From Chloroflexia bacterium SDU3-3 (GTDB lineage: Bacteria > Chloroflexota > Chloroflexia > Chloroflexales > Roseiflexaceae): DNA of 64,000 bases. Of this stretch, positions 46,763 through 59,935 are shown in pieces. Position 1 is the stretch's first letter, and the number at the start of each line of letters is the position of its first letter. The notes beneath the pieces are model-generated. The model made no database searches. It was not told the origin of the DNA and worked only from the letters and a program-made list of their open reading frames with translations. The stretch is taken from assembly GCA_009268125.1 (NCBI GenBank), contig WBOU01000002.1:124001-188000 (forward strand), read 5' to 3'. Both the position numbers and the translations under genes were made by a program.

Positions 46763-46829
46763 CATTGTTGGTGGCGTGGCCCGTGAGTGCATCGTTTTGG
46801 GCCTCACCGACGTCTAAACCGTAGCATAT

Positions 46830-46857
46830 TTGATATTAGTCGCATATGGGCTATACT
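46830..46857 (+). promoter_or_regulatory. Promoter TTGATA-16-TATACT
   Basis: -35 TTGATA, a 16-bp spacer and -10 TATACT (preceded by GGC, so not extended). Initiation near 46864 gives a ~118-nt leader for the sigma-factor gene. Confidence 0.72.
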
Positions 46858-46906
46858 ATGCCTGTGCAAAACGATGCCGCGCCTCAACCAACCTGCTGCA
46901 CGCACG

Positions 46907-46938
46907 AACAGCCGCACTGGTGCGCAGGGCTGTTTTTC
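46907..46938 (+). terminator. Possible attenuator in the sigma-factor leader
   Basis: AACAGCC and GGCTGTT close a hairpin with an inner GCACTGGTGC, followed by TTTTT, about 45 nt into the predicted leader and 44 nt before the ATG. It can end transcription before the sigma gene or give a short RNA. Confidence 0.6.
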
Positions 46939-46981
46939 CCCGCCGCGATGCTGTGGCCCAGCTCACAATGAAGGAATAGCC

Positions 46982-47632
46982 ATGCACTTGGAGGAGCGTA
47001 TCGCCCTTGCCAGGGCTGGTGACATCGCCGCCTATAGCGAGATCTACCGGCAGTATGCGGTCGGCATCCTCCGCTACCTCTACGCGCGCCTGGGCGACCA
47101 GGAGCTGGCCCAAGAGCTGACCCAGGAGGTGTTTGTGCGCGCGCTGCACAACCTGGGCGTGTTCGAGAGCCGGGGCGAGCTGCTGTTTTTGGGCTGGCTC
47201 TACCAGATCGCTGGCGATGTGCTGGCGGGCTATGCCCAGCACGCCGCATTGCCGCGCACGCCCCTGGATGGCGGGGGCGAGCTGCCCAGCCAGCCCGGCC
47301 CCAACCGCTCTACCCTGCGCCGCATGCTGCTGCGCCTCCCCGAGCAGCAGCAGGTGCTGCTGGCGCTGCGTTTCTTCGCGGGCATGTCGGCCAGCGAGAT
47401 CGCCCAGGCGCTGCGTGTGGCCGAGCCTGCGGTGCTTGAGCGGCAGCACCAGGCCCTGGCCGCCCTGCACCAGCTGATCGAGCGTGGCGAGCCTGCCCCA
47501 GCCCCAGCCGCACCCGGCGCCCCCGACCCCTACCGCGTGCCCGATGGGCCGCTGCAGGGCCGGGCGCTTGACAGCACGATCGATATGATGGAGTACCGAC
47601 GCAGTGGAACATCGGCTCAGCACGACTCTTGA
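46982..47632 (+). CDS. ECF-type RNA polymerase sigma factor
   Basis: A 216-residue group IV sigma factor. Region 2 (about 18-75) has YRQYAVGILRYLYARLGD, ELAQELTQEVFVRALHNLG and FLGWLYQIAGDVL. Region 4 (about 110-165) has RRMLLRLPEQQQVLLALRFF and MSASEIAQALRVAEPAVLER, the -35-binding helix-turn-helix. The Ala/Pro-rich last 45 residues are extra. AAGGA lies before the ATG. The gene overlaps its putative anti-sigma gene by 29 bp, so levels are coupled by translation. A leader hairpin may attenuate it. Confidence 0.9.
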   Translation: MHLEERIALARAGDIAAYSEIYRQYAVGILRYLYARLGDQELAQELTQEVFVRALHNLGVFESRGELLFLGWLYQIAGDVLAGYAQHAALPRTPLDGGGELPSQPGPNRSTLRRMLLRLPEQQQVLLALRFFAGMSASEIAQALRVAEPAVLERQHQALAALHQLIERGEPAPAPAAPGAPDPYRVPDGPLQGRALDSTIDMMEYRRSGTSAQHDS

Positions 47633-49184
47633 TCAGGCGCTTGCGCTGATGCAGGCCGGGGCCAGCGTAGAGGAGTGTCTCGCGCGCTACCCCGCCGACC
47701 AGGCCGCGCTGGAGCCGCTGCTGTGGGTCGCTGCGGCCATGGCTACGCAGGCCGCCGAGCCGCTGGGAGCCGATCTGGAGCTATGGCCCTACCTTGAGGG
47801 CGCGCACGAGCTGGCGGCCATAGCCGCGCTGCGGCGGCACACCCACCGCCGCAGCCAGCGGCCCACATCCCCCGCCGCGCTGGATACCGCGCTGGATCTG
47901 GCCCAGCTGGGCGGCCCGCCGCTGCCCTGCCTGGGCGAGCTAGCCCCCCTGGCCGATCTGGGCAGCGCGCTCTACGCCGAATCGCGCGAGCCGCTGCCAC
48001 GCGAGATGATCGAGTGGCTGGCGGCTGGCGAGCGCGACATCCGCCAGCACGCCGAGCGCCGAGCAGGGCTGCCGCTGGTGCTGCGTGAGCGCCGCGCGCG
48101 CCGTGGGCTTGCGCAGGCGGCGCTGGCCACGCTGGCCGCTGCCTTCATGCTGCTGGCGGTTGACCAGGCCTCGGCAGAGAGCTTGCCGGGCCAGCCGCTC
48201 TACGCCTGGAAGCTGGCCCGTGAGGATCTGGCAGTGGCGATCACGCCAGATGCTGGGCCGCGCGGGTGGCTGCACGTGCGCTATGCCCAAGAGCGCATGA
48301 GCGAGGCGCAGGCCCTGATCTCCAGCGGGGTTGCGGCTGACTCGCCGCTGGTGGCGGGGGCCATGCACAGCGCCCTGGAGCACTCGCGCAGCGCCCTGAG
48401 CAACGCCACGCTGGCAAATACCTACCCCAATGTGCTGCCAGCGCTCAGCCAGATGGCCAGCGAGTCGCGAGCAACGCTTGCCCAAGTTGAACAGGCCGAG
48501 CAGCCCGGCCCCGCTCTGGCCGAGGTGCGGCAGGTGCTAGATGAGATCGCTGGCCCGTCGGTGCTGCCAGCCGTCGCGTCATCCACGGTGTCGCCACAGC
48601 CCACAGCTACGCTGGCGGTGGCCACCCCCGTGCGCACGAGCGCGCCCGCCAGCCCTACCGCAGCATCGGCTGTGCCTACCGCCGCTGCGACACGCCCGCC
48701 CACCGCCGCGCCGACGCCCGCCCTATCCGCTACGGTGGTTGCAGCTACGGCCACAGCTACGCCGATCGCGACCGCAGCAGCTCAGCCGACGCTGCCCCCG
48801 AGCGCGACGCCCGTGCTGCCGAGCGCGACGCCGCAGGCCACGGCCAGCGCGACGCCGCAGGCCACGGCCACCGTTACAGCCACCGCCACGGCAATGCCAA
48901 GCGCCACGGTAATGCCAAGCGCCACGCCGACGGCCACCGCCACACCCACCGCCCTGCCCACCGCCACACCCACGGCTACGCCGAGTGCCACGCCCACGGT
49001 GCCGCCGAGCGAGACGCCTGCGCCGAGCGAGACGCCCGTGCCGCCAACAGAGCTGCCGCCGAGCGAGACGCCTGCGCCGAGCGAGACGCCCGTGCCGCCA
49101 ACAGAGCTGCCGCCGAGCGAGACGCCCGTACCCAGCGAGATATCTGTGCCCAGCGAGATCGTCACGGCAGAGCCGCAGGAATAG
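47604..49184 (+). CDS. Membrane anti-sigma-like protein with DUF5667 and Thr/Pro stalk
   Basis: A 526-residue single-pass protein. The N-terminal ~165 residues are cytoplasmic and helical (LARYPADQAALEPLLWVAAA), without a zinc-finger HxxxCxxC. TM helix near 170-188. The outside begins with a DUF5667 segment (SLPGQPLYAWKLAREDLAVA..ERMSEAQALI), which in other phyla follows ECF anti-sigma regions. About 200 residues of Thr/Pro/Ala stalk follow, with near-perfect PPTELPPSETPAPSETP repeats at the end. GTG start with GGAG 10 bases upstream, inside the sigma gene. Pairing with the ECF gene makes an anti-sigma or sensor role likely. Confidence 0.78.
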   Translation: MEHRLSTTLDQALALMQAGASVEECLARYPADQAALEPLLWVAAAMATQAAEPLGADLELWPYLEGAHELAAIAALRRHTHRRSQRPTSPAALDTALDLAQLGGPPLPCLGELAPLADLGSALYAESREPLPREMIEWLAAGERDIRQHAERRAGLPLVLRERRARRGLAQAALATLAAAFMLLAVDQASAESLPGQPLYAWKLAREDLAVAITPDAGPRGWLHVRYAQERMSEAQALISSGVAADSPLVAGAMHSALEHSRSALSNATLANTYPNVLPALSQMASESRATLAQVEQAEQPGPALAEVRQVLDEIAGPSVLPAVASSTVSPQPTATLAVATPVRTSAPASPTAASAVPTAAATRPPTAAPTPALSATVVAATATATPIATAAAQPTLPPSATPVLPSATPQATASATPQATATVTATATAMPSATVMPSATPTATATPTALPTATPTATPSATPTVPPSETPAPSETPVPPTELPPSETPAPSETPVPPTELPPSETPVPSEISVPSEIVTAEPQE

Positions 49185-49238: not shown

Positions 49239-49688
49239 CTAGCCGTAGATCCAGCCGTCCACGTTGCGCTCCATCTCCACCAGCTCGTCGGCCTTGAAGA
49301 ACAGGTTCACCTCAAGCTCGCCATTCTCGGGCGAGTCCGACGCGTGGATCAGGTTGCGGCTGGTCTCCAGGCCGAAGTCGCCGCGGATGGTGCCAGGGGC
49401 GGCGTTGACCGGGTTGGTCGCGCCGACCATGGTGCGCACGGTGGCCACAACCTCTTTACCTGTGACGGCTAGCACCACCACCGGGCCGGAGGTGATGAAC
49501 GAGATCAGGCCCGGGAAGAACGGCTTGCCCTCGTGGACGGCGTAGTGGCGCTTGGCTAGGCTCTCATCCATGTGGATGAGCTTCATGCCGATCAGCTTCA
49601 GCCCGCGCTGCTCAAGGCGGGTGAGGATCGCGCCAACAAGCCCGCGCTGGACAGCATCGGGCTTGAGGATAATCAGTGATCGCTCCAT
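49239..49688 (-). CDS. ndk: Nucleoside diphosphate kinase
   Basis: A 149-residue NDK that transfers the gamma phosphate among nucleotides. MERSLIILKPDAVQRGLVG at the N-terminus, the Kpn-loop region, MVGATNPVNAAPGTIRGDFG and the active-site RNLIHASDSPENG with phospho-His near 116 are all intact. AAGGAG is nine bases before this ATG. The frame is open for 47 codons upstream, but that part is leader with a promoter inside it. Confidence 0.96.
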   Translation of the reverse strand: MERSLIILKPDAVQRGLVGAILTRLEQRGLKLIGMKLIHMDESLAKRHYAVHEGKPFFPGLISFITSGPVVVLAVTGKEVVATVRTMVGATNPVNAAPGTIRGDFGLETSRNLIHASDSPENGELEVNLFFKADELVEMERNVDGWIYG

Positions 49689-49766
49689 GATCTGAATCTC
49701 CTTCTCAGTCTCGCTTAATAAGATGCCGTAAGGCTCTATGTCGATAATATCCGTTTGCCACGCCAA

Positions 49767-49793
49767 ATAATACCATAGCTTTTTCATCACAAA
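49767..49793 (-). promoter_or_regulatory. Extended -10 promoter for ndk (TGGTATTAT)
   Basis: Minus-strand TTTGTG, a 15-bp spacer and TG-G-TATTAT. Initiation near 49760 gives a ~72-nt leader. Confidence 0.6.
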
Positions 49794-49907
49794 CTCAGAA
49801 AACGGGCAAGGTATCAGCACTTTTGGCAAAAATGTGATGAAAGAAAAGGGAAAGCGCTTGATATTACGTTAGGGTGCTAGTGTTTTAGCATCCTCTGCTG
49901 CCGACAC

Positions 49908-49936
49908 ACAAAAGCGGTGGCCTTTCGACCACCGCC
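49908..49936 (-). terminator. Terminator of the scaffold/Roadblock operon
   Basis: On the minus strand GCGGTGG and CCACCGC form a stem around an 8-nt loop, followed by TTTTGT. Confidence 0.75.
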
Positions 49937-49960: not shown

Positions 49961-50308
49961 CTAGATGGGGAGTGCTTCGCCGATGCGCTTGGACGCGCGT
50001 CGCATTTCCATCTTCACCAAGCCCAGGTTGACCATCCGCTGGGTGATCACAACCAGGATCAGGTCTTTCGCCTCAAGCATCAGGATAGACCCTTGCTCAG
50101 CATCAATGATGCTGTCCACCAGGGTTCCAACGCCGATCCGTTTGGTCGCTTTATCTATCTCGCCGAAGACTGCGGCGGACATGGCACCCAAAACCTCGGC
50201 ATCTTCTTCATCGAGTAGCGTACTGGCGACAACAAGGCCATCCTTGCCCACCAGCAGGCTTCCGATTACGCCTTCTACTCGGATCAAGTCTTCGACGATC
50301 CGTCGCAT
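49961..50308 (-). CDS. Roadblock/LC7 domain protein
   Basis: A 115-residue Roadblock/LC7 (MglB-like) fold: IVEDLIRVEGVIGSLLVGKDG, VVASTLL, LGAMSAAVFGEIDKATKRIG and ILMLEAKDLILVVITQ, then a C-terminal helix with KMEMRRASKRIG. Roadblock proteins dimerise and regulate small Ras-like GTPases (for example MglA) in motility and polarity. No MglA-like GTPase lies next to it. The gene starts 25 bp after the stop of the giant scaffold gene, so the two are cotranscribed and probably work together. AAAGG is eight bases before the ATG; earlier in-frame ATGs lie inside the scaffold gene. Confidence 0.88.
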   Translation of the reverse strand: MRRIVEDLIRVEGVIGSLLVGKDGLVVASTLLDEEDAEVLGAMSAAVFGEIDKATKRIGVGTLVDSIIDAEQGSILMLEAKDLILVVITQRMVNLGLVKMEMRRASKRIGEALPI

Positions 50309-50333: not shown

Positions 50334-53300
50334 TTAGTTGTTGCCGTAGATCCAGTTGTACTCACTAATTGCGTCGTCGATACGCCCCTGCTTTGAGTAG
50401 GCGTCACCGAGGAGGCGGTGCAGCCGCTGTAGCGTGTGCGGATCGTCTGTGTCGCTAATCAGGTCGGACAGATCGTCGACGACGATGTCAAGCAGTACAT
50501 TCTGGCGGATGATGTTCTTGTACTGCTGAATAGCCGCCTCTGCCTGCCCGATCTGCCCACTGATGCGCGCCAGCGAGAGCCGAAGCGCATGGTTCTGGGG
50601 GTCTTGCTCAAGCCGCTTCAGGTAGCTGCCCAGGGCAGGCACCTGCTCGGAAAGCGAGTTGGAAAGCCCTGGGCTCTGCCGGGGCTGCACAATCGGCGTC
50701 GGCTGCTGCGCAGGTGTGGGCTGCGCCGCCGGTTCAACAATGTGCGGGGTCGCTGCCACGGGCGGCGTATCCACCGGCCTGCTGGGTGCAGGCGTGGGCG
50801 TCTTCGGCTCCTCGGGCGTCGGTTCGGCCAGGATGTCATCGAGCGAGAACGAGCCGATGTCGAGCGAGGGGCTGGCGCTGGCCTTTGGCGTCTCCGGGAG
50901 ATCCGGCTCAAGGCTGGCAAGCTCCTCTTCGGTGAGCCCCAGATCGCTCAGGGCAAACGGGGTCATCTCCGGCTCATCCTCATCGTCGGCTGGGGCCGGG
51001 GTTGCCGCAGGTGCGTCGCCCAGGCCTAGGTCGGCGATCTCATCGTCGGAGAGGCCAAGGTCGGCCAGCGAGAACGGGGTCATCTCCGGCTCGGCGGCAG
51101 GCTCGGGGGTGGTCTCCGGGATGTCATTGAGGCCCAGGTCGGCGATCTCGTCCTCGGAGAGGCCAAGGTCGGCGAGCGAGAACGGGGTCATATCGGACTC
51201 ATCGGCCACCGGCTCTGGCTCACGGGTCTTCGGGGCTGGCTCGCCCAGGCCCAGGCTGGCAATCTCGTCATCGGAGAGGCCCAGGTCGCTGAGCGAGAAC
51301 GGGGTCATGTCCGGCTCTTCGGCGGTGGGGCGCACATCGGCAAAGTCGATCTGGGAGAGGTCATCGGCTTGCTCTTCCTCCTCGACCTCGTACTCGGCCT
51401 CCATGTCCACTTCCTCATCGCCATCGAAGATCTTGATGTTGTTCTCGTGCAGGATCTGCCCGATCTGCTCGATGCGCTCGGCCTCGGCCTCGGGGTTCTC
51501 AACCCCAGCGATGATGTCGGCAATATCGACATAGCCCTGCATCGTGCCCAGGTCAAGCAGCCGATCCAGCAGAGGGTCGCCGGTGCCGGTGGCGGCGGGT
51601 TCTGGCTCTGGCTCCGGCTCGGGGTCAAAGTTGAGGTCGAGATCGAAGCTTGACAGTGGCTCCGGCTCTGGCTCTGGCTCTGGTGTCGCTGGCGTGCTCT
51701 CGCTGAGCTGGAATTCGCTCAGGTCGATGTCGCCGCCCATGTCCAGGCCCTTGAGCTCTTCCTCGGTGATGCGCAGGCCGGTGTCCTCGGGCTGGTCGTC
51801 AAGCCCAAGGGCGTCGATCTCATCCTGCGAGAGGCCCAGGTCGCTCAGCGAGAAAGGCGAGAGCGAGTCGAATCCTGCGGCGAGGTCATCTTCCGCGTGG
51901 GTCTCGGCCACCGGCTTCTCATCCGCTGGCTCCTCATCCACTAGCTCAAGTGCGCCCAGCGAATCATCCGATAGGAAGTCGAAGTCGTCGGCCTGTGGGC
52001 TTTCGGCCTCGGGGGCTGCCTCGATCACTGGCTCGGGTGTGCTTGGTGTGGCCGAGGCCGCCTCGGCAGGCTCGTCATCGCCGAGCATGCTGGTGAAGCT
52101 TTGGGCCGCACCACTGTTGCCGCCCAGGCCCAGCGCGGCGATCTCCTCGGGGCTAAGCCCAAGGTCGGCCAGCGAGAACGGCTGGATCTGGCCGCTGGAG
52201 AGACCAGCGCTCAGATCTTCCACATTCTCGTCTTCGTGTGCGGGCTTGGATGCCTCGGGTGTGCTCGGCGTGGCGGCAGCCTCGGCAGCCAGTTGCTCGT
52301 GGGCCGCGCCTTCTGCTGTGTCGTCACGCAGCGAGATGTCATCCATCGAGAAGATCATGCGGTCGTTTGGCGTCTCCTCGAAGTTCTCGCTGAGCGGCGG
52401 CTCGATCGGCTGGAACGAGTCGATCTCTTGCTCCTTGCGCGTCTTCAGCTTGGAGAAGATAGATTCGCCATCCGGCATCAGCGGGTCGCGCTCACCGGTC
52501 ACCGGGTCGACATAGGCGGGGCGAGGGCGCTGCGTGGGCTGCTGCCAGCTATACCCGCCGCTCTGCGCGATGGTGTCCTCGTCGTCTTCGCTCGATGGCT
52601 CGTCGCGGTTGAACTTTGGCTCGGGCGGGATGAAGCTGCTCGATCGCGGCTGCCCCATCGGGGCATCATCCAGCGAGAAGGGCTGGAGCGATGGAGGAAG
52701 CCCACCACCACCGTTGTCGAGGTCAAGCTCGTCGAACGAGAATGGCAGCAGGTCATCGGGTAGGTCATCTTGCTGGCTGCTTGGATTCTGGCCAGGGATG
52801 CCAAATGGCATGTCGGGTGTGGCGCTGCCGATCTGCCCAGCGTTGATGCTGGCGATCTCGTCGTCGGAGAGGCCAAGGTCGGCGAGCGAGAAGGGCGTCA
52901 TCTCCGGCTCGTCGGCTGCAGGCGCGGCGGTAGAGGCGCTGTCGATGCTGGCAATCTCGTCGTCGGAGAGGCCAAGGTCGGCGAGCGAGAAGGGCGTCAT
53001 CTCCGGCTCGTCGGCGCTCGGCGCGGCGGTAGAGGCGCTATCGATGCTGGCGATCTCGTCGTCGGAGAGGCCAAGGTCGGCGAGCGAGAAGGGCGTCATC
53101 TCTGGCTCGTCGGCTGCAGGCGCGGGAGACTCGGTCACGCTGGCGTCGCTGATGCTGGCGATCTCGTCGTCGGAGAGGCCAAGGTCGGCGAGCGAGAAGG
53201 GCGCCATCTCCGGCTCGTCGGCGCTCGGTGCGGCGGTAGAGGCGCTGTCGATGCTGGCGATCTCGTCGTCGGAGAGGCCAAGGTCGGCGAGCGAGAAGGG

Positions 53301-54845
53301 CGTCATCTCCGGCTCGTCGGCTGCAGGCGCGGGAGACTCGGTCACGCTGGCGTCGCTGATGCTGGCGATCTCGTCGTCGGAGAGGCCGAGGTCGGCGAGC
53401 GAGAAGGGCGCCATCTCCGGCTCGTCGGCGCTCGGTGCGGTGGTAGAGGCGCTGTCGATGCTGGCGATCTCGTCGTCGGAGAGGCCAAGGTCGGCGAGCG
53501 AGAAAGGCGCCATCTCCGGCTCGTCGGCGCTCGGCGCGGGAGACTCGGTCACGCTGGCGTCGCTGATGCTGGCGATCTCGTCGTCGGAGAGGCCAAGGTC
53601 GGCGAGCGAGAAGGGCGCCGTCTCCGGCTCATCGGCCACGAACTCACCTGGTTGGGTGATCTCGCTTGCCGACGGGCTGGATGTGATGCCCTCGATCTCG
53701 TCATCGGAGAGACCCAGGTCGCTGAGCGAGAAAGGCGTGAGCGGCGGCGCGTCGTCCTCTTTTGCGCCACCTGCGCCGAAGTCTAGGTCATCCAGCGAGA
53801 AGGGGTTGGCGTTGATCGGCTCGGTTATCTCGTCGATCGGTGCGCTGGGGGCCGCCTTGGGTGCGGCTGCGGCAGCTGCGGCTGCGGCAGCTGCGGTGGT
53901 GGCACCAGTGCCCGCCAGCAGCACAGCCAGGAAGTCATCGTTGTTGCCCGCGCTGACGGCAGCGGGCTGCGGCGTGCGCTGCGGCGCGGCGACAGGTGTC
54001 TCTAGCTCGGCGATCGGGATGGGGCGCGTGGCGGCGGGCACGGGCTGCTTCTCAAGCTCGCGCTGGCGCAGCCACTCATCGGCGTCCCACTCGGGCAGCT
54101 CGGGGTTCTGCTCGGAGCCAGCGGGCAGCGTGTCGAAGAGCACCTTGCCGACCGTCAGGTAGGGGTCGATCTGCAGGGCGGTGTCCCAGTAGCGCTGGCC
54201 ATCGGGCTTGCCCTGGGCGAGGTAGATGTAGCCGAGCAGCAGGTTGGCCTTGAGCGACTCGGGCCGCTGGGCCAGGATGTCCTTGGATTGAGCGATGGCC
54301 TCGTTTTCCTGGCCGTCGCGCCAGAGCGCCTCGGCCAGCGCGACCTTCGCATCCTGGCGAGCGGGCTGCTCGGTGATCACCTGGCGAAACTCGTTGATCG
54401 CCTGGGGCAGCATGTGCCCTTTGGCGTAGAGCCGCGCGAGGCCGGCCTTGCTGATTCCGACCTGGGCATGCTCTTTGCCCCAAGCCTCGGTGTAGAGACG
54501 CTGCAGCTGAGTGCGCAGCTCCGTCATGTCCTGGCGAATTTCCCAGGCCTGTTCGAACTCCAGCACTGCGCGATCGAGCTTACCTTGCCGTTCGTACGAG
54601 ATGCCAAGGCCCACGTGGGCCGGAATATTTTCCGGGTCTGAGCGCAGCACACGATCGAATGCTTCTTGAGCCTTGTCGAGCTGCCTGCTGGCAAGATAGG
54701 CCTCGCCAAGGATACGATAGGCTTCAAGGTTATTCGGGTAGTAGTTGAGGATGTGCTGGGCTAGCCCGATGGCACGCTCCGGATCGTTGCTCTCAATCCA
54801 GCGCCGGGTCTGGTCATAGGCCCCTTGGAGGCTCATCGTAGCCAT
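50334..54845 (-). CDS. Giant acidic TPR scaffold with 15 PFSLADLGLSDDEIASI motifs and a sigma-1.1-like segment
   Basis: A 1503-residue cytoplasmic protein with no TM or signal peptide. Residues 1-240: TPR repeats (NLEAYRILGEAYLASRQLDK, IPAHVGLGISYERQGKLDRA). About 325-345: poly-Ala. From ~360 on: acidic Pro/Glu/Ser-rich sequence carrying 15 copies of PF[SA]L[AS]DLGL[ST]-x2-E[IL], nine between ~365 and 665, then near 890, 998, 1185, 1225, 1262 and 1298. Several decayed versions (PFSFDELDL, SFSLDDIL) lie between. About 1085-1145: RLLDLGTMQGYVDIADII..IEQIGQILHENNIKIFDG followed by a Glu-rich tail, which resembles sigma-70 region 1.1. About 1400-1503: further TPR-like helices. It is likely a multivalent assembly platform. 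No characterised protein with this layout comes to mind. Confidence 0.8.
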   Translation of the reverse strand: MATMSLQGAYDQTRRWIESNDPERAIGLAQHILNYYPNNLEAYRILGEAYLASRQLDKAQEAFDRVLRSDPENIPAHVGLGISYERQGKLDRAVLEFEQAWEIRQDMTELRTQLQRLYTEAWGKEHAQVGISKAGLARLYAKGHMLPQAINEFRQVITEQPARQDAKVALAEALWRDGQENEAIAQSKDILAQRPESLKANLLLGYIYLAQGKPDGQRYWDTALQIDPYLTVGKVLFDTLPAGSEQNPELPEWDADEWLRQRELEKQPVPAATRPIPIAELETPVAAPQRTPQPAAVSAGNNDDFLAVLLAGTGATTAAAAAAAAAAAPKAAPSAPIDEITEPINANPFSLDDLDFGAGGAKEDDAPPLTPFSLSDLGLSDDEIEGITSSPSASEITQPGEFVADEPETAPFSLADLGLSDDEIASISDASVTESPAPSADEPEMAPFSLADLGLSDDEIASIDSASTTAPSADEPEMAPFSLADLGLSDDEIASISDASVTESPAPAADEPEMTPFSLADLGLSDDEIASIDSASTAAPSADEPEMAPFSLADLGLSDDEIASISDASVTESPAPAADEPEMTPFSLADLGLSDDEIASIDSASTAAPSADEPEMTPFSLADLGLSDDEIASIDSASTAAPAADEPEMTPFSLADLGLSDDEIASINAGQIGSATPDMPFGIPGQNPSSQQDDLPDDLLPFSFDELDLDNGGGGLPPSLQPFSLDDAPMGQPRSSSFIPPEPKFNRDEPSSEDDEDTIAQSGGYSWQQPTQRPRPAYVDPVTGERDPLMPDGESIFSKLKTRKEQEIDSFQPIEPPLSENFEETPNDRMIFSMDDISLRDDTAEGAAHEQLAAEAAATPSTPEASKPAHEDENVEDLSAGLSSGQIQPFSLADLGLSPEEIAALGLGGNSGAAQSFTSMLGDDEPAEAASATPSTPEPVIEAAPEAESPQADDFDFLSDDSLGALELVDEEPADEKPVAETHAEDDLAAGFDSLSPFSLSDLGLSQDEIDALGLDDQPEDTGLRITEEELKGLDMGGDIDLSEFQLSESTPATPEPEPEPEPLSSFDLDLNFDPEPEPEPEPAATGTGDPLLDRLLDLGTMQGYVDIADIIAGVENPEAEAERIEQIGQILHENNIKIFDGDEEVDMEAEYEVEEEEQADDLSQIDFADVRPTAEEPDMTPFSLSDLGLSDDEIASLGLGEPAPKTREPEPVADESDMTPFSLADLGLSEDEIADLGLNDIPETTPEPAAEPEMTPFSLADLGLSDDEIADLGLGDAPAATPAPADDEDEPEMTPFALSDLGLTEEELASLEPDLPETPKASASPSLDIGSFSLDDILAEPTPEEPKTPTPAPSRPVDTPPVAATPHIVEPAAQPTPAQQPTPIVQPRQSPGLSNSLSEQVPALGSYLKRLEQDPQNHALRLSLARISGQIGQAEAAIQQYKNIIRQNVLLDIVVDDLSDLISDTDDPHTLQRLHRLLGDAYSKQGRIDDAISEYNWIYGNN
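52846..53640 (-). repeat. Near-identical tandem coding repeats (motif copies 2-9)
   Basis: Eight units of two alternating lengths, with almost identical DNA over ~70-bp cores (for example GATCTCGTCGTCGGAGAGGC). The linkers alternate between an SDASVTESPAP type and an SAST(A/T)AP type, so the expansion went by duplication of a two-unit block. The outlying copies 1 and 10-15 are much more diverged. Confidence 0.92.
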
Positions 54846-54967: not shown

Positions 54968-54996
54968 ATTATAGCCTATGTGTCAAACCCTCGCAA
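54968..54996 (-). promoter_or_regulatory. Promoter TTGCGA-17-TATAAT
   Basis: On the minus strand, -35 TTGCGA, a 17-bp spacer and -10 TATAAT. It is the only convincing promoter for the scaffold/Roadblock operon, with a leader of about 115 nt. Confidence 0.78.
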
Positions 54997-55228: not shown

Positions 55229-55603
55229 TTAGGAGGAACGTACTACCACAACACGCATGCGTGCATCGGCGTGAATAGTGCACATCAGATCAAATGTTCC
55301 AACATTAAAGAACTGCTGCTGAAATGTTTGGCCTGGCTCGATCTTGTAGGGGCCGATCTGCACCGCCTGCTGGTCGTCGTTGCGGATCACTAGGATGTCG
55401 CGCAGGCCGAGGGTCATGGTGATGGTGGATGGGAGGACATCGAGTGGCTGCCCAGCGGCGACACGCTGGATGGTGCCCTGCGGGATGACGTACTCGACCT
55501 TGCGATTGGCCTCGCGCTGCTGGTGGGTCTGCCAGCCGGTGGCGGCTGCCACGCAGGCGATCAGGAAGGCGCAGATGCCGATGAGTATGATTTTCCAGCT
55601 CAT
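55229..55603 (-). CDS. Membrane-anchored cupredoxin-like protein
   Basis: A 124-residue protein: one N-terminal TM helix (about 5-24), then a small beta-barrel. The end has CTIHADARM, the Cys-x2-His-x4-Met end of a type 1 copper site. The first His expected in the loop after IRNDD is replaced by Gln (DQQAVQIGPYKI), so the site is incomplete or binds copper differently. Last gene of the copper-delivery operon (54 bp after the PCuAC gene). It may pass Cu to cytochrome c oxidase or serve as an electron carrier; this is inferred from context. Confidence 0.75.
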   Translation of the reverse strand: MSWKIILIGICAFLIACVAAATGWQTHQQREANRKVEYVIPQGTIQRVAAGQPLDVLPSTITMTLGLRDILVIRNDDQQAVQIGPYKIEPGQTFQQQFFNVGTFDLMCTIHADARMRVVVVRSS

Positions 55604-55657
55604 AGATGTCCTCTCTCCACTTCGGGCAGGGCGGCGTGCGCCGCCCTGCCCTGCGGG

Positions 55658-56236
55658 CTACTTCTCGCGGATGGGGGCGGTGACCGTGACCTCGCCTGCG
55701 GTGGCGAAGGTGAGCTTGAGCGTGATGCTCTCGCCCGCCACCAGCGGCTTGGTGAGGCCGATCAGCATCAGGTGGTAGCTGCCGGGCTTCAGCGTGACGC
55801 TGCCGCCCGCCGGGATCTCTAGCCCGCCCTCGACGGGGCGCATAGACATCACGCCGTTTTCCTCGATCACATTGTGGACCTCGGCGGTCTTGGCGGCGTC
55901 GGTGCTGACGCTCACCAGCTTGTCGGCGGCGCTGCCGCTGTTGGCGATGACCATGTAGGCCGCGCCCATGCCGCCATCCATGTCGCCCATGCCGCCCGCC
56001 TCGGCGGTGGCCATGCTGCCCATGCCGCCCGCCTCGGCGGTGGCCATGCTGCCCATGCCGCCGCTCATCTGCGAGGCGCGCGCCCAGGGGCTGCTAATGC
56101 TGATCGCGCCTGCCTTCACATCGGCGGCGCTGGATGCGGCGGCGGTGCTGGCGGCTGGGGCGGTGGCGGTGCTGCTGCCACATGCGGCCAGGGCCAGGGC
56201 GAGCGCTGCCGTGGGCAGGATGGTGTGGAGTTTCAT
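55658..56236 (-). CDS. PCu(A)C copper chaperone lipoprotein with Met-rich insert
   Basis: A 192-residue lipoprotein (lipobox LAAC). The domain has the H-x10-M...H-x-M copper(I) motif: VHNVIEENGVMSM and YHLM. PCuAC proteins load copper into the CuA centre of cytochrome oxidase together with Sco. An unusual insert after SPWARASQM holds repeated GGMGSMATAEA and GGMGDMDGGMG units, Met/Gly-rich sequence likely to bind extra Cu(I). 36 bp downstream of the Sco gene, same strand. Confidence 0.93.
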   Translation of the reverse strand: MKLHTILPTAALALALAACGSSTATAPAASTAAASSAADVKAGAISISSPWARASQMSGGMGSMATAEAGGMGSMATAEAGGMGDMDGGMGAAYMVIANSGSAADKLVSVSTDAAKTAEVHNVIEENGVMSMRPVEGGLEIPAGGSVTLKPGSYHLMLIGLTKPLVAGESITLKLTFATAGEVTVTAPIREK

Positions 56237-56272
56237 GGGATCTGCCTTTCTGCTGAATCTATCGCGAAGAAA

Positions 56273-56866
56273 CTAGGAGTTGTTCACAAGGTAGCGGGTG
56301 TCGCTGGCGATGTCCTCGGATGTCACGCCGAATGGCATCATCGCCCGCCAGTTGCCGTCTTTGTCGATCACATAGATGAATGCCGAGTGGTCCATGGTGT
56401 ACTGCAGCTTCGAGTTCGGCAGCTCGCGGCGGATGGCGGTGACGCCGTACGACTTCATCACCGGCGCGATCTCCTCCTGGGTGCCGGTGAGGCCGATGAA
56501 GGTGGAGTCGTAGTTGTGGACGTAGGTGCCGATCTTCTGCTGGTTGTCGCGGGCGGGGTCGACGGTGATCAGGGCGACCTTGATCCGGTCGGCGTCGCCG
56601 CCGAGCTGCTTGCGGGCGGCGGCGATGTCGGCCAGGGTGGTGGGGCAGACATCGGGGCAGGATGTGAAGCCGAAGAACAGCAGCACCACATTGCCCTTCT
56701 GCTGGCTGAGCGTGAAGGGCTGGCCGTTCTGGTCGGTCAGGGTGAAGTCGGGCGCGGGCTTGGCTGGCTCGATCACCGTGCTGCGAAAGGTGTAGGGCTG
56801 GCCGCACGAGCTGAGGGCGAGCAGGCTAACCAGGGCGAGCAGGATCAGGGCGGGCATTCGTTTCAT
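56273..56866 (-). CDS. SCO1/SenC family copper metallochaperone
   Basis: A 197-residue lipoprotein (lipobox LSSC) with a thioredoxin-like fold. Copper ligands are TSCPDVCP and the later His (MDHSAFIYVID). Sco proteins reduce or load the CuA site of cytochrome c oxidase. Start: GAGG seven bases before this ATG; an ATG 12 codons earlier has no site. The CopC-CopD gene ends 59 bp upstream. Both Cys and the His are present, so it should be functional. Confidence 0.94.
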   Translation of the reverse strand: MKRMPALILLALVSLLALSSCGQPYTFRSTVIEPAKPAPDFTLTDQNGQPFTLSQQKGNVVLLFFGFTSCPDVCPTTLADIAAARKQLGGDADRIKVALITVDPARDNQQKIGTYVHNYDSTFIGLTGTQEEIAPVMKSYGVTAIRRELPNSKLQYTMDHSAFIYVIDKDGNWRAMMPFGVTSEDIASDTRYLVNNS

Positions 56867-56925
56867 AGTGTGTCCTCTTTTGGTGTGTGATACCGACGGC
56901 ACGGCTGGCGGCTCGCCTCGGGCGG

Positions 56926-58656
56926 CTAGGGCCGCGCGGCCTTGACAATGTCGGCCTGGAAGGTATGGCGGATGTCGTCGTACCCTGGGCGGCGCACGAT
57001 CACCTCGATCTGCCAGCGCCCGCCCATGGAGATGTAGCTGCCGCGCGCGGTGTAGCGGCCGTCGCCGCCCGGCTTCATCTCGGCCTGGATGGTGCCCATC
57101 TCCATGCCCACCATGGTGAAGTCGATCAGCACCGTGGCGGGCGCGGCATCCGCGCCCTGGCGGGTGTCGCGCACATCCACGGCGAACTCGTTCTCGCCGA
57201 TCTGCGCGGGCGCGACCTGGAGCCGGATGCTCGCGCCGTCGAGATCGGCGGTCTGGCTGATGCCGAGCTTGCTCTGCTCGGCCCAGGCGGCCTTGCTAGG
57301 GGCCACGCTGGTCATCGCGCCCACGGCCAGCAGCACCAGCGCGCCCAGGGCCAGCTCGCCCGCGATGCTGCGCCCGAAGCGGCGGGCCAGGCCCGTGCCG
57401 CCCTTGCGCAGCCCTGGCGAGAGCACCAGCAGGTTCCACGCCCCCAGCGCCAGCAGCAGCGCGAACAGCGCCAGCTTGGCGGCCAGCGCCCGCCCATAGG
57501 TGGTGTCGCGCAGCAGCGCGGGCTGGCCAATGTGCAGGAAGTAGCTGTAGGTGCCGCTGGCGGCCAGCACCAGCACGCAGGCCACGGCCAGCGCCGAGAA
57601 GCGCGGGATGAGCCTGCCCAGCGGCAGTGCGTGGTCTCTGCGCTCGCGCGCGCCCCACAGGGCCATGCCCAGCGGGGCCAGCCCGCCCACCCAGGCCACT
57701 GTGGCCGCGATGTGCAGCCAGTCGAGGGCGGTGGCCAGCGCCGCGCCCTGCGGCTCGGCGGCGGCGTGGCTGCCCAGGCTGAAGGTGAGCACCTGCGCGC
57801 CACCCAGGCCCAGGGCCAGCCACCACGGCCAGGCCGCGCCCGCGCCAGGGGCGGGCAGCCGCGTGGCCAGGGCCAGGGTGGCCAGCCCCAGCGCCGCGCG
57901 GGCCACCAGTAGCCCGCCGGTGTAGCTGCGCAGCAGCGCCGCCGCAGGCTGGCCCAGGGCCTGCCACGCGGGCACGCCCGCCGCCGTGGCCGCCTGATCG
58001 ATCAGGAAGACCACGGCGGCCAGCAGCCCGGCGGCGCTGCCCGCCACGATCAGTCGGCGCAGGTGCCTGCCAAACGACTGGTCGATCGCGGTGTAGTCGG
58101 CCTTTTGGTCGGCGGCGCTGGCCGCGCGGAAGGCGGGACGCCACACCAGCAGCGCGAAGGGCACCCCGCCCAGCGCCGCGACCAGGGCCAGCAGCCCCAT
58201 CCAGCGTGTGGCCGCGCTGCCCAGCGGTGGCGCGGCGGTGGCTGGCTCTACCGCGCCCGGCGGCGGGATGAGTGCAGCCTGCGCGACGGCCACGCCCACG
58301 CCGAACGGCACGCTGCCCTCGGTCACGTGCCCATCCACCGCCGAGCGAGCGCGCCAGAGCGCGGTGTAGGTGCCCTTGGGCAGGGTGCCCAGCGCCAGCC
58401 GCAGCGTGTGCGGGTCGGCAGGGTCGATGCTGCCGGGGCCTGCATCCAGCAGCGCGTTGCTGGAGTCGAAGAGCTGCACGCGCGAGAAGTCAGCGTCGAG
58501 CTGCTCGCTGAACTCCAGCACGATCTCGGCGGGGGCCTGATCGAGCGTGCTGCCCACGGCGGGCGTGGAGCGCACCAGCCCGGCGTGCGCCCACGCGGGC
58601 GTGGCCGTGGCCAGCAGGGCCAGCGCGACAATGGTGATGGCGAGAAACCTGCGCAT
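56926..58656 (-). CDS. CopC-CopD fusion, copper import/resistance protein
   Basis: A 576-residue fusion. Signal peptide, then a CopC domain: the N-terminal copper-binding His directly after cleavage (WAHAGLVRSTP), STLDQAPAEIVLEFSE, and DGHVTEGSVPF with the second His. A membrane CopD domain of about eight helices follows, including SHAAAEP and LDWLHIAATVAWVGGLAPL. A C-terminal YtkA-like beta domain (VLIDFTMVGMEMG) ends it. The YcnJ-type fusion imports copper in Bacillus. The gene begins 8 bp after the gene at 58665. Confidence 0.92.
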   Translation of the reverse strand: MRRFLAITIVALALLATATPAWAHAGLVRSTPAVGSTLDQAPAEIVLEFSEQLDADFSRVQLFDSSNALLDAGPGSIDPADPHTLRLALGTLPKGTYTALWRARSAVDGHVTEGSVPFGVGVAVAQAALIPPPGAVEPATAAPPLGSAATRWMGLLALVAALGGVPFALLVWRPAFRAASAADQKADYTAIDQSFGRHLRRLIVAGSAAGLLAAVVFLIDQAATAAGVPAWQALGQPAAALLRSYTGGLLVARAALGLATLALATRLPAPGAGAAWPWWLALGLGGAQVLTFSLGSHAAAEPQGAALATALDWLHIAATVAWVGGLAPLGMALWGARERRDHALPLGRLIPRFSALAVACVLVLAASGTYSYFLHIGQPALLRDTTYGRALAAKLALFALLLALGAWNLLVLSPGLRKGGTGLARRFGRSIAGELALGALVLLAVGAMTSVAPSKAAWAEQSKLGISQTADLDGASIRLQVAPAQIGENEFAVDVRDTRQGADAAPATVLIDFTMVGMEMGTIQAEMKPGGDGRYTARGSYISMGGRWQIEVIVRRPGYDDIRHTFQADIVKAARP

Positions 58657-58664
58657 GGCTGTGG

Positions 58665-59288
58665 CTAGGCCTGCTGGCCCTGGGCCTTGGCCGGCGCGGC
58701 CTGGGCCTTGGCCGGTGCCTTGCGCAGCAGCACAAACAGCGCCGCGATCAGCGCGATCGCGCCCACGGCAATGCCGGTGATCCCGATGGCGCGGGCCTGG
58801 GCCACCTGGTCGAGCAGATCTTGGCTGGTCGGCTCGGCGGCGGGGAAGGCCACCGTGGCCTTGGCGTTCACGTTGCCGAAGGTCTCGGGGCCGCTGGTGA
58901 GCGAGAGGTCCACTGGCGTGCCCTCGATGGTGCCGAAGATGCGCCAGGTGTAGGTGCCCGCCTTCGTTGGGATGACATCGGCGGTATACGCGCCATCCTG
59001 GCCCCACTGGGCGTGGATGGCGAACTCCTGCTTGCTGCCGCCGTAGGTCAGCTCGGCCTTGAGCGTGTCCTCTAGGTTCTTGACTGGCTGGCTGGTCTTC
59101 TCGTTGGTCACGCGCAGGTCAAGGCCGTTTGGCTCGCCCTGGTAGGCTGGCTCGTTCAGGAAGCCGATCACCAGCTCGTAGTCGCCCGCCTTCAGGTGGC
59201 CGTGGGCCGACGCGGTGGGCATGGCGATGGGCGCGAGCAGCGCGCCAGCAAGCACGGCCAGGGCCGCGATCCGGGTTGCGATCTTCAT
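58665..59288 (-). CDS. Exported membrane-anchored protein of the copper operon
   Basis: A 207-residue protein: signal peptide ending TASAH, an extracytoplasmic beta-sandwich-like domain (GDYELVIGFLNEPAYQGEPN, DGAYTADVIPTKAGTYTWRI) and a C-terminal TM helix (about 165-188) with an Ala/Lys/Gln-rich tail (KAPAKAQAAPAKAQGQQA). His residues right after cleavage (HGH) may bind metal. Strong ribosome-binding site (AAGGAG). It heads the five-gene copper unit. Chloroflexota relatives are uncharacterised, and a copper-binding role is inferred from its position. Confidence 0.72.
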   Translation of the reverse strand: MKIATRIAALAVLAGALLAPIAMPTASAHGHLKAGDYELVIGFLNEPAYQGEPNGLDLRVTNEKTSQPVKNLEDTLKAELTYGGSKQEFAIHAQWGQDGAYTADVIPTKAGTYTWRIFGTIEGTPVDLSLTSGPETFGNVNAKATVAFPAAEPTSQDLLDQVAQARAIGITGIAVGAIALIAALFVLLRKAPAKAQAAPAKAQGQQA

Positions 59289-59446
59289 CTCTTCTCTCCT
59301 TCGAAATACATCATTCGTTGTAAGGGCTGGTCGAGCGGCGCATGGCAGCAGATCGGCCATGGATCTTTTTTCCATGGGGATGCTGGCGCTCGTGCGCTGG
59401 GCCATCTTGGGGTACGCTGTGCATGCCCCGAGGTGCTGGGGTGATG

Positions 59447-59935
59447 TTAGGCTGCGAAGGCAGGTCGAATGATCGGAGGAGGCGAGAGCGGCTGGGGGCG
59501 GTGTTGGGCTTGGCGCAGCACCGGGGATAGGTTGGGGCGGGCGATGCTGGCCAGCACCAGCAGGATGACCACGGACAGCAGCAGCATCTCGTGGAAGGGC
59601 TGGCCGAAGCTGGTGGGGCAGTTTGGGGCGGCGCTGTTGGGGCTGCTGGCCATCCCGTGGCAGTTGGTGCCCACCGGGGCCACGCTGGCCAGATCGGGCG
59701 TGGCGCTGGCGTGGTGGTGGTGCATGGCTGTCATGCCGCTGGCGGTGCCCAGCATCTCGATGATCGCACAGTGGGCGACACAGGCCAGCGGCTCCAGCAG
59801 GCCGAGCGTGAGCACGACAAATAGGCTGGTCAGCGCCCCGCGCCGTCGCAGCCTGCCTGCTATTGGGTGCCAGATGCGGCACATGCGTGTCAGAAGCTCG
59901 CGCACACTCTTCTCAATGCTGGAAATATCTGCCAT
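59447..59935 (-). CDS. His/Cys-rich small membrane protein, start uncertain
   Basis: Up to 162 residues: an amphipathic basic N-terminus, one TM segment (LTSLFVVLTLGLLEPLACVAH), an external loop with CVAHC, MHHHHAS, CHGM and CPTSFGQ, and a second TM segment near the end. The clustered His/Cys/Met residues and its place upstream of the copper operon suggest copper sensing or binding. A consensus promoter lies so close that the ATG at 59935 would be just upstream of the transcript start. GTG at codon 12 or ATG at 59884 may be the real start. Confidence 0.55.
   Translation of the reverse strand: MADISSIEKSVRELLTRMCRIWHPIAGRLRRRGALTSLFVVLTLGLLEPLACVAHCAIIEMLGTASGMTAMHHHHASATPDLASVAPVGTNCHGMASSPNSAAPNCPTSFGQPFHEMLLLSVVILLVLASIARPNLSPVLRQAQHRPQPLSPPPIIRPAFAA

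Follow-up and report, generated by a model that had tools for sequence, protein, structure and literature searches.

A motif-rich TPR protein encoded beside a Roadblock protein in Chloroflexota, a candidate multivalent adaptor

What a 1503-residue protein that carries one short motif again and again might bind, and whether its partner is the small Roadblock/LC7 protein encoded next to it, is the question raised by a locus of Chloroflexia bacterium SDU3-3. The locus lies in a window of 64,000 nucleotides, which is the whole stretch of DNA analyzed here, and all features are on the reverse strand unless stated otherwise. The open frame and translation of the larger gene (hereafter the scaffold; 50334..54845) begin at an ATG that is preceded by a strong ribosome-binding sequence, GGAGGAG, and homologs of the protein were matched in all 40 genomes sampled from the family and the order. 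An original prediction, made from the letters of the sequence, described a protein of 1503 aa with TPRs at both ends, and this architecture was confirmed by the open frame and by Pfam matches above the gathering score. The N-terminal TPR superhelix (aa 1-236; 54138..54845) matched TPR_19 with E=3.6e-21 and was modeled by AF2 with a pLDDT of 92-98; its closest structural matches are generic TPR superhelices, PEX5 and OGT among them. At the other end, a TPR match at aa 1403-1449 falls within a TPR-like helical domain (aa 1380-1503; 50334..50708; PF14561), and the homologous segment of a relative was predicted by AF2 to form six helices (pLDDT 80-89).

The linker between these ends is of low confidence in the AF2 model and probably disordered. 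A short motif recurs along it in many conserved copies, and on this basis the protein appears to behave as a multivalent short-motif scaffold, with the Roadblock protein as the putative receptor of the motif. A second conserved element in the linker, the SWQ...SIFxKL...IFSMDD box (aa 767-842; 52320..52547), was located with a regular expression and occurs in most Chloroflexales scaffolds that are accompanied by a Roadblock gene; the same expression found no box in the scaffolds of genera g8 and g2. At four loci (L097, L115, L119 and L145, from Viridilinea and others) the scaffold is split over two overlapping frames, owing either to a real frameshift or to misassembly of the repeats.

A strict regular expression recovered 15 full PFSLADLGLSDDEIASI copies of the motif, together with 5 shorter FS[LFM] sites at aa 349, 702, 723, 832 and 1333, in agreement with the 15 clean copies and about five others counted previously. 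PF-type sites number 18 in the scaffold, as compared to a mean of 0.42 and a maximum of 4 in 200 shuffles. When the 6.76-Mb genome of SDU3-3 was searched with a DNA pattern of the motif, all 14 matches fell inside the scaffold gene, and the reversed pattern, used as a control, gave none. The first full copy (aa 371-387, PFSLSDLGLSDDEIEGI; 53685..53735; regular expression) was predicted by AF2 as a short helix, a turn and a further helix. It is followed by a tandem array identified with TRF, with eight full copies in a higher-order unit of 207 bp (52845..53636), by two dispersed copies recovered by the regular expression at aa 889-905 (52131..52181) and, also by the DNA pattern, at aa 997-1013 (51807..51857), and by four copies at aa 1182, 1221, 1257 and 1296 (50910..51302; regular expression and TRF), past a sigma-70 region 1.1 domain discussed below. 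The consensus of 276 instances from 21 genomes is EPE[LM]xPFSLx[DE]LGLSxxEIAxL, with codons that vary at most positions. In each copy, AF2 placed a helix of four residues before an LGL turn and another helix after it, with a pLDDT of about 70-89, and the motif is thus predicted to consist of two short capped helices joined by the LGL turn, rather than of the one short amphipathic helix proposed at first.

The DNA pattern matched 63 of 74 order-level genomes, an outcome that answers the proposed search for the motif in relatives in the affirmative, and the 11 genomes that lack it are exactly those of genera g8 and g2. The full motif is found in the Chloroflexales and in one deeper member of the class (G043); the other deep members have the short form only, such as EPFSFDEP or QPFAFEDF. 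This form is probably ancestral, as judged from its distribution, and since the five short sites of the scaffold match it, they are better read as an older form than as the decayed copies for which they had been taken.

The eight copies in the array are recent duplicates, because its 207-bp units are 94% matching, and such an array is what would be expected if the repeats were a neutral tandem expansion with no role in binding. The copies outside the array are, however, dispersed and encoded by different codons, and they keep their residues across 21 genomes, which largely refutes this explanation; furthermore, presence of the motif tracks the Roadblock gene (see below). We therefore regard neutral expansion as extremely unlikely. 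A relationship of the motif to PF06568 (DUF1127; 16 residues, one helix) was considered and rejected: the match was obtained for 10 of 31 members, with a best value of 2.4e-16 that is summed over repeats, and the similarity is regarded as convergence. Searches with the motif among PDB sequences gave matches at chance level.

The neighboring gene encodes a protein of 115 aa (49961..50308) that is, with 63.2 bits against a gathering score of 23 for PF03259 (E=2e-17), a member of the Roadblock family according to its sequence. Its start lies 25 bp past the stop of the scaffold, and both the family assignment and the spacing bear out the earlier description. A terminator-like hairpin with a 10-bp stem and a T-rich tail (49913..49936) is located just 3' of the Roadblock gene. 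A single weak promoter-like site was found at the operon, upstream of the scaffold (54968..54996), as would suit the proposal that both genes are under the same promoter; 0.9 such sites are, however, expected by chance, and a shared scaffold-Roadblock transcript is plausible. The third gene, conserved by synteny, encodes a nucleoside diphosphate kinase (NDK; 49239..49829; PF00334, 2.3e-54). Across the order, the Roadblock protein is 82-93% identical, as compared to 46-65% for the best-conserved part of the scaffold.

Two other groups of genes were observed nearby. On the forward strand, at 46787-49184, a sigma-factor-like frame overlaps that of a DUF5667 protein with a long repeat tail rich in Pro, Ser, Thr and Glu, and this pair also adjoins NDK in an uncultured Kouleothrix (L108). 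On the reverse strand, at 55229-59882, there is an apparent copper-handling cluster, named from the sequence by eye, with cupredoxin-like, PCuAC-like, SCO-like, CopC/CopD-like and YtkA-like proteins, of which the PCuAC-like protein has a Met-rich GGMGSMATAEA repeat.

The original prediction had suggested examining whether the Roadblock gene is syntenic in relatives, and its adjacency to the scaffold is indeed kept in the whole of the order and also outside it. Among the named organisms that carry the Roadblock gene are Roseiflexus, Kouleothrix, Chloroflexus, Oscillochloris, Chloroploca, Viridilinea and Herpetosiphon. The genes are arranged as scaffold, Roadblock, NDK throughout the order, as well as in families f6, f8, f10 and f12 (one of two loci). 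Outside the class, a TPR scaffold is encoded directly upstream of the Roadblock gene at all 10 loci fetched (families f17, f23, f30, f46 and f49), with NDK downstream in 8 of them. The scaffolds at these loci (L171-L180) have 0-3 PF sites in the presence of the Roadblock gene, and the PF motif is therefore not universally required. Other short motifs recur in them, P.WL..L and LE.LE..L.S.GF..L.P..L, which are possibly alternative ligands of Roadblock. As judged from its distribution, the operon is old in the Chloroflexota, and filamentous phototrophs, for example Chloroflexus and Roseiflexus, are among its carriers. No description of the operon or of the scaffold-Roadblock combination was found in the literature searched, and the operon is apparently undescribed so far.

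For 66 scaffolds from the class, placed on a single tree, we compared the presence of the motif with that of the Roadblock gene. In the 52 scaffolds that have the Roadblock gene next to them, PF motifs are always present (2-37), as compared to 0-1 motifs in 13 of the 14 scaffolds without one, genome G027 being the exception. The lineages that lack the Roadblock gene are genera g2 and g8 (f1), g39 (f10), and genomes G083 (f12), G127 (f14), G060 (f7) and G027 (f2). In the loss lineages NDK overlaps the scaffold or sits less than about 165 bp from it, a gap that leaves no room for the gene, which must therefore be gone and not merely divergent. A count of co-losses genome by genome was abandoned in favor of a count by branches. 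The tree implies six losses of the Roadblock gene and five of the motif, and all five motif losses map to Roadblock-loss branches, for which the probability by chance is about 0.004 when weighted by branch length and about 2e-8 when unweighted. When the count is confined to supported branches, three pairs are concordant, no pair is discordant and one pair is without difference, and the sign test is not significant. An early tree of 45 rows contained one concordant and one discordant loss, to which the deeper families added four concordant ones. As a control free of prior choice of the motif, all 400 dipeptides in the linker were compared, and PF best separates scaffolds with from those without the Roadblock gene (AUC 0.954); restricted to deep families that lack the long motif, the comparison puts it in second place. 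Family f10, in which the MglA-like GTPase discussed below was not found, shows the same association.

Because PF motifs vanish almost whenever the Roadblock gene is lost in the class, the Roadblock protein is the likeliest partner of the motif, as argued from sequence comparisons and from analogy with known systems. Our preferred reading, to which we give somewhat better than an even chance, is that the scaffold is a multivalent adaptor whose PF motifs dock dimers of the Roadblock protein encoded next to it. Each copy of the motif would dock on a Roadblock dimer, such that one scaffold chain would bind many of them; the dimers could in turn cross-link scaffolds into a high-avidity hub, with clients held by the TPRs. 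Roles of such a hub in polarity, motility or transcription, or a capacity for phase separation, as put forward in the original prediction, are speculative.

Alternatively, the PF motifs may bind a third protein, with the Roadblock protein docking elsewhere or acting beside the scaffold, and both being lost when the pathway is lost. Genome G027 (locus L078) fits this scenario in that it has no Roadblock gene and yet keeps seven PF sites, three of which are full motifs. So does the fate of the linker in g8 and g2, where the whole of it, including the SWQ/SIFxKL box, was lost together with the Roadblock gene, and so do other families, in which Roadblock occurs alongside different short motifs, P.WL being one. 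With regard to the preferred reading, linkers are shorter and branches long in the loss lineages, and the scaffold of G083 is almost without a linker, so the motif could have been lost along with the linker as a whole. Against a third protein, PF is the top one of 400 dipeptides between the two groups and the second in deep families, and the co-loss recurs on five branches; we consider this scenario rather unlikely.

The motifs could also fold back onto the TPR grooves of the scaffold itself, for autoinhibition or self-assembly and independently of Roadblock. TPRs are peptide-binding folds, as the matches to PEX5 and OGT illustrate, and here they share one chain with the motifs. The TPR ends survive, however, in lineages that have lost the Roadblock gene and the motifs, and are thereby shown, at the level of sequence conservation, to be the conserved Roadblock-independent part of the scaffold. 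In addition, an AF2 model of the N-terminal TPRs with motifs, obtained without PAE, has a folded TPR domain and locally helical motifs with no signal of docking. Such folding back is very unlikely in our view. Regarding the preferred docking of motifs on Roadblock, an AF2 model of a natural read-through chain of a relative (locus L099), which contains region 1.1, three motifs, the C-terminal TPR domain and Roadblock, gave no usable docking (pTM 0.27); the chain contains a single copy of Roadblock, which is itself poorly modeled (pLDDT about 31-69), and a fold search with this model gave weak TPR-like matches only.

The fold of the Roadblock protein is distantly similar to that of MglB (6h5b, E=0.046) and LAMTOR2, which raises the alternative that the operon is an MglB-like polarity module, in which Roadblock would regulate a GTPase, the scaffold would concentrate the regulator and an MglA-like GTPase would be the output. 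The SDU3-3 genome encodes such a small GTPase, which shows 82-93% identity in most Chloroflexales and is distributed within the order almost like the Roadblock gene, being absent from g8, g2 and G027. Its gene is located on the same contig about 398 kb from the operon, and there is no GTPase gene beside the operon itself. The search of the phylum speaks against this alternative: families f30, f46, f49 and f10 have the operon and no match to the MglA-like GTPase, and in f19 the GTPase is present in the absence of an ortholog of the operon's Roadblock gene. The operons in f30, f46 and f49 argue against the GTPase as an obligate partner, which was rejected on these grounds, and since families with the operon have no GTPase match, Roadblock can evidently work without it. 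Against the NCBIfam MglB model, the one MglB model matched, the protein scored 17.2 bits with a cut-off of 200. As the score is far below the cut-off of the model and an obligatory GTPase is not co-encoded, we did not assign the operon to the MglA/MglB modules. A more natural partner for a GTPase is a second Roadblock protein of SDU3-3, encoded at locus L186 (G000 C18) in a cluster with three other frames that were named by eye, one globin-like, one DUF4388-like and one for a small GTPase. The Roadblock proteins of such DUF4388-like clusters share the fold with that of the operon, but they are distant paralogs (about 29-32% identity) with different neighbors. Altogether, we find the polarity module unlikely.

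The scaffold also contains a domain that the original prediction had missed, a sigma-70 region 1.1 (PF03979, Sigma70_r1_1; aa 1089-1152; 51390..51581; Pfam match at aa 1093-1159), which scored 24.8 bits against a gathering score of 22.5, was matched in 18 of 31 scaffold orthologs and was modeled in a relative with a pLDDT of mostly 77-90. Only two other region 1.1 domains are encoded in the SDU3-3 genome, both in SigA-type sigma factors (L162 and L163; G000 C12 and C5), one of which is encoded beside dnaG. The domain in the scaffold resembles that of the dnaG-adjacent sigma factor, with 33% identity over 49 aa, and 39% identity was obtained for the scaffold of Chloroflexus. Pfam gave no match in the scaffold to sigma regions 2 and 4, which recognize promoters, and in contrast to the sigma-70 factors the scaffold is, judging by its domains, a non-sigma protein. 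It is in itself unusual to find region 1.1 in a protein other than a sigma factor; the domain may contact RNA polymerase or another protein.

This domain suggests a further alternative, a transcription-linked hub, in which region 1.1 and the acidic linker would contact RNA polymerase, with the motifs and Roadblock as accessories. In addition to the 33-39% identity to the sigma factor, it is in agreement with this alternative that an iterated profile recovered exactly one well-conserved copy of region 1.1 in scaffolds of f1 (g8 excepted), f3 and f4. In f2, in g8 and in those deeper members of the class that were tested, however, the same profile did not recover it, nor was it found at the checked loci outside the class, where the operon is present, and the promoter-recognition regions are missing from the scaffold. 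Region 1.1 is kept in g2, which has no Roadblock gene, and was not found in f2, which has one; the profile searches show it as a separate module, within the Chloroflexales only. We consider a hub of this kind quite improbable.

Docking of the PF motifs on Roadblock dimers, as we propose, has partial counterparts in known systems. The operon's Roadblock protein has weak sequence matches that include LAMTOR2, and in Ragulator, LAMTOR1 wraps the LAMTOR2/3 Roadblock dimers; unlike the operon, Ragulator is eukaryotic and has neither a repeat motif nor a TPR scaffold. In the polarity system of Myxococcus, a short helical segment at the C-terminus of the bacterial protein RomR binds the Roadblock protein MglC with a KD of 2.6 nM (PMC12719032), which is similar to what we propose for the motif. 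RomR, which interacts with MglC/MglB, has one such segment, as opposed to the many in the scaffold, and a response-regulator receiver domain instead of TPRs, and the system is embedded in that of the MglA GTPase, unlike the scaffold operon (PMC12719032). The dynein intermediate chain, like the proposed scaffold, is a disordered chain that binds dimeric light chains (LC7/Roadblock, LC8 and Tctex) at multivalent short sites; it is, however, a subunit of a eukaryotic motor, with no single repeated motif and without the TPR ends and the sigma domain of the scaffold, and no homology is claimed (PMC9771362).

In the most far-reaching version of the proposal, the scaffold would be a polyvalent hub resembling the dynein intermediate chain, in which up to about 37 motifs recruit rows of Roadblock dimers independently of an MglA-like GTPase and, in the Chloroflexales, a captured region 1.1 provides a link to RNA polymerase; we think this combination quite unlikely. 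Bacterial Roadblock proteins are mostly understood as GTPase regulators. If the proposed docking is true, the Roadblock protein of these bacteria, being coupled to a motif even where there is no GTPase, would probably have a role as a structural adaptor, like LC7 or LAMTOR, and this adaptor role would be accessible to a simple assay with a peptide of one motif.
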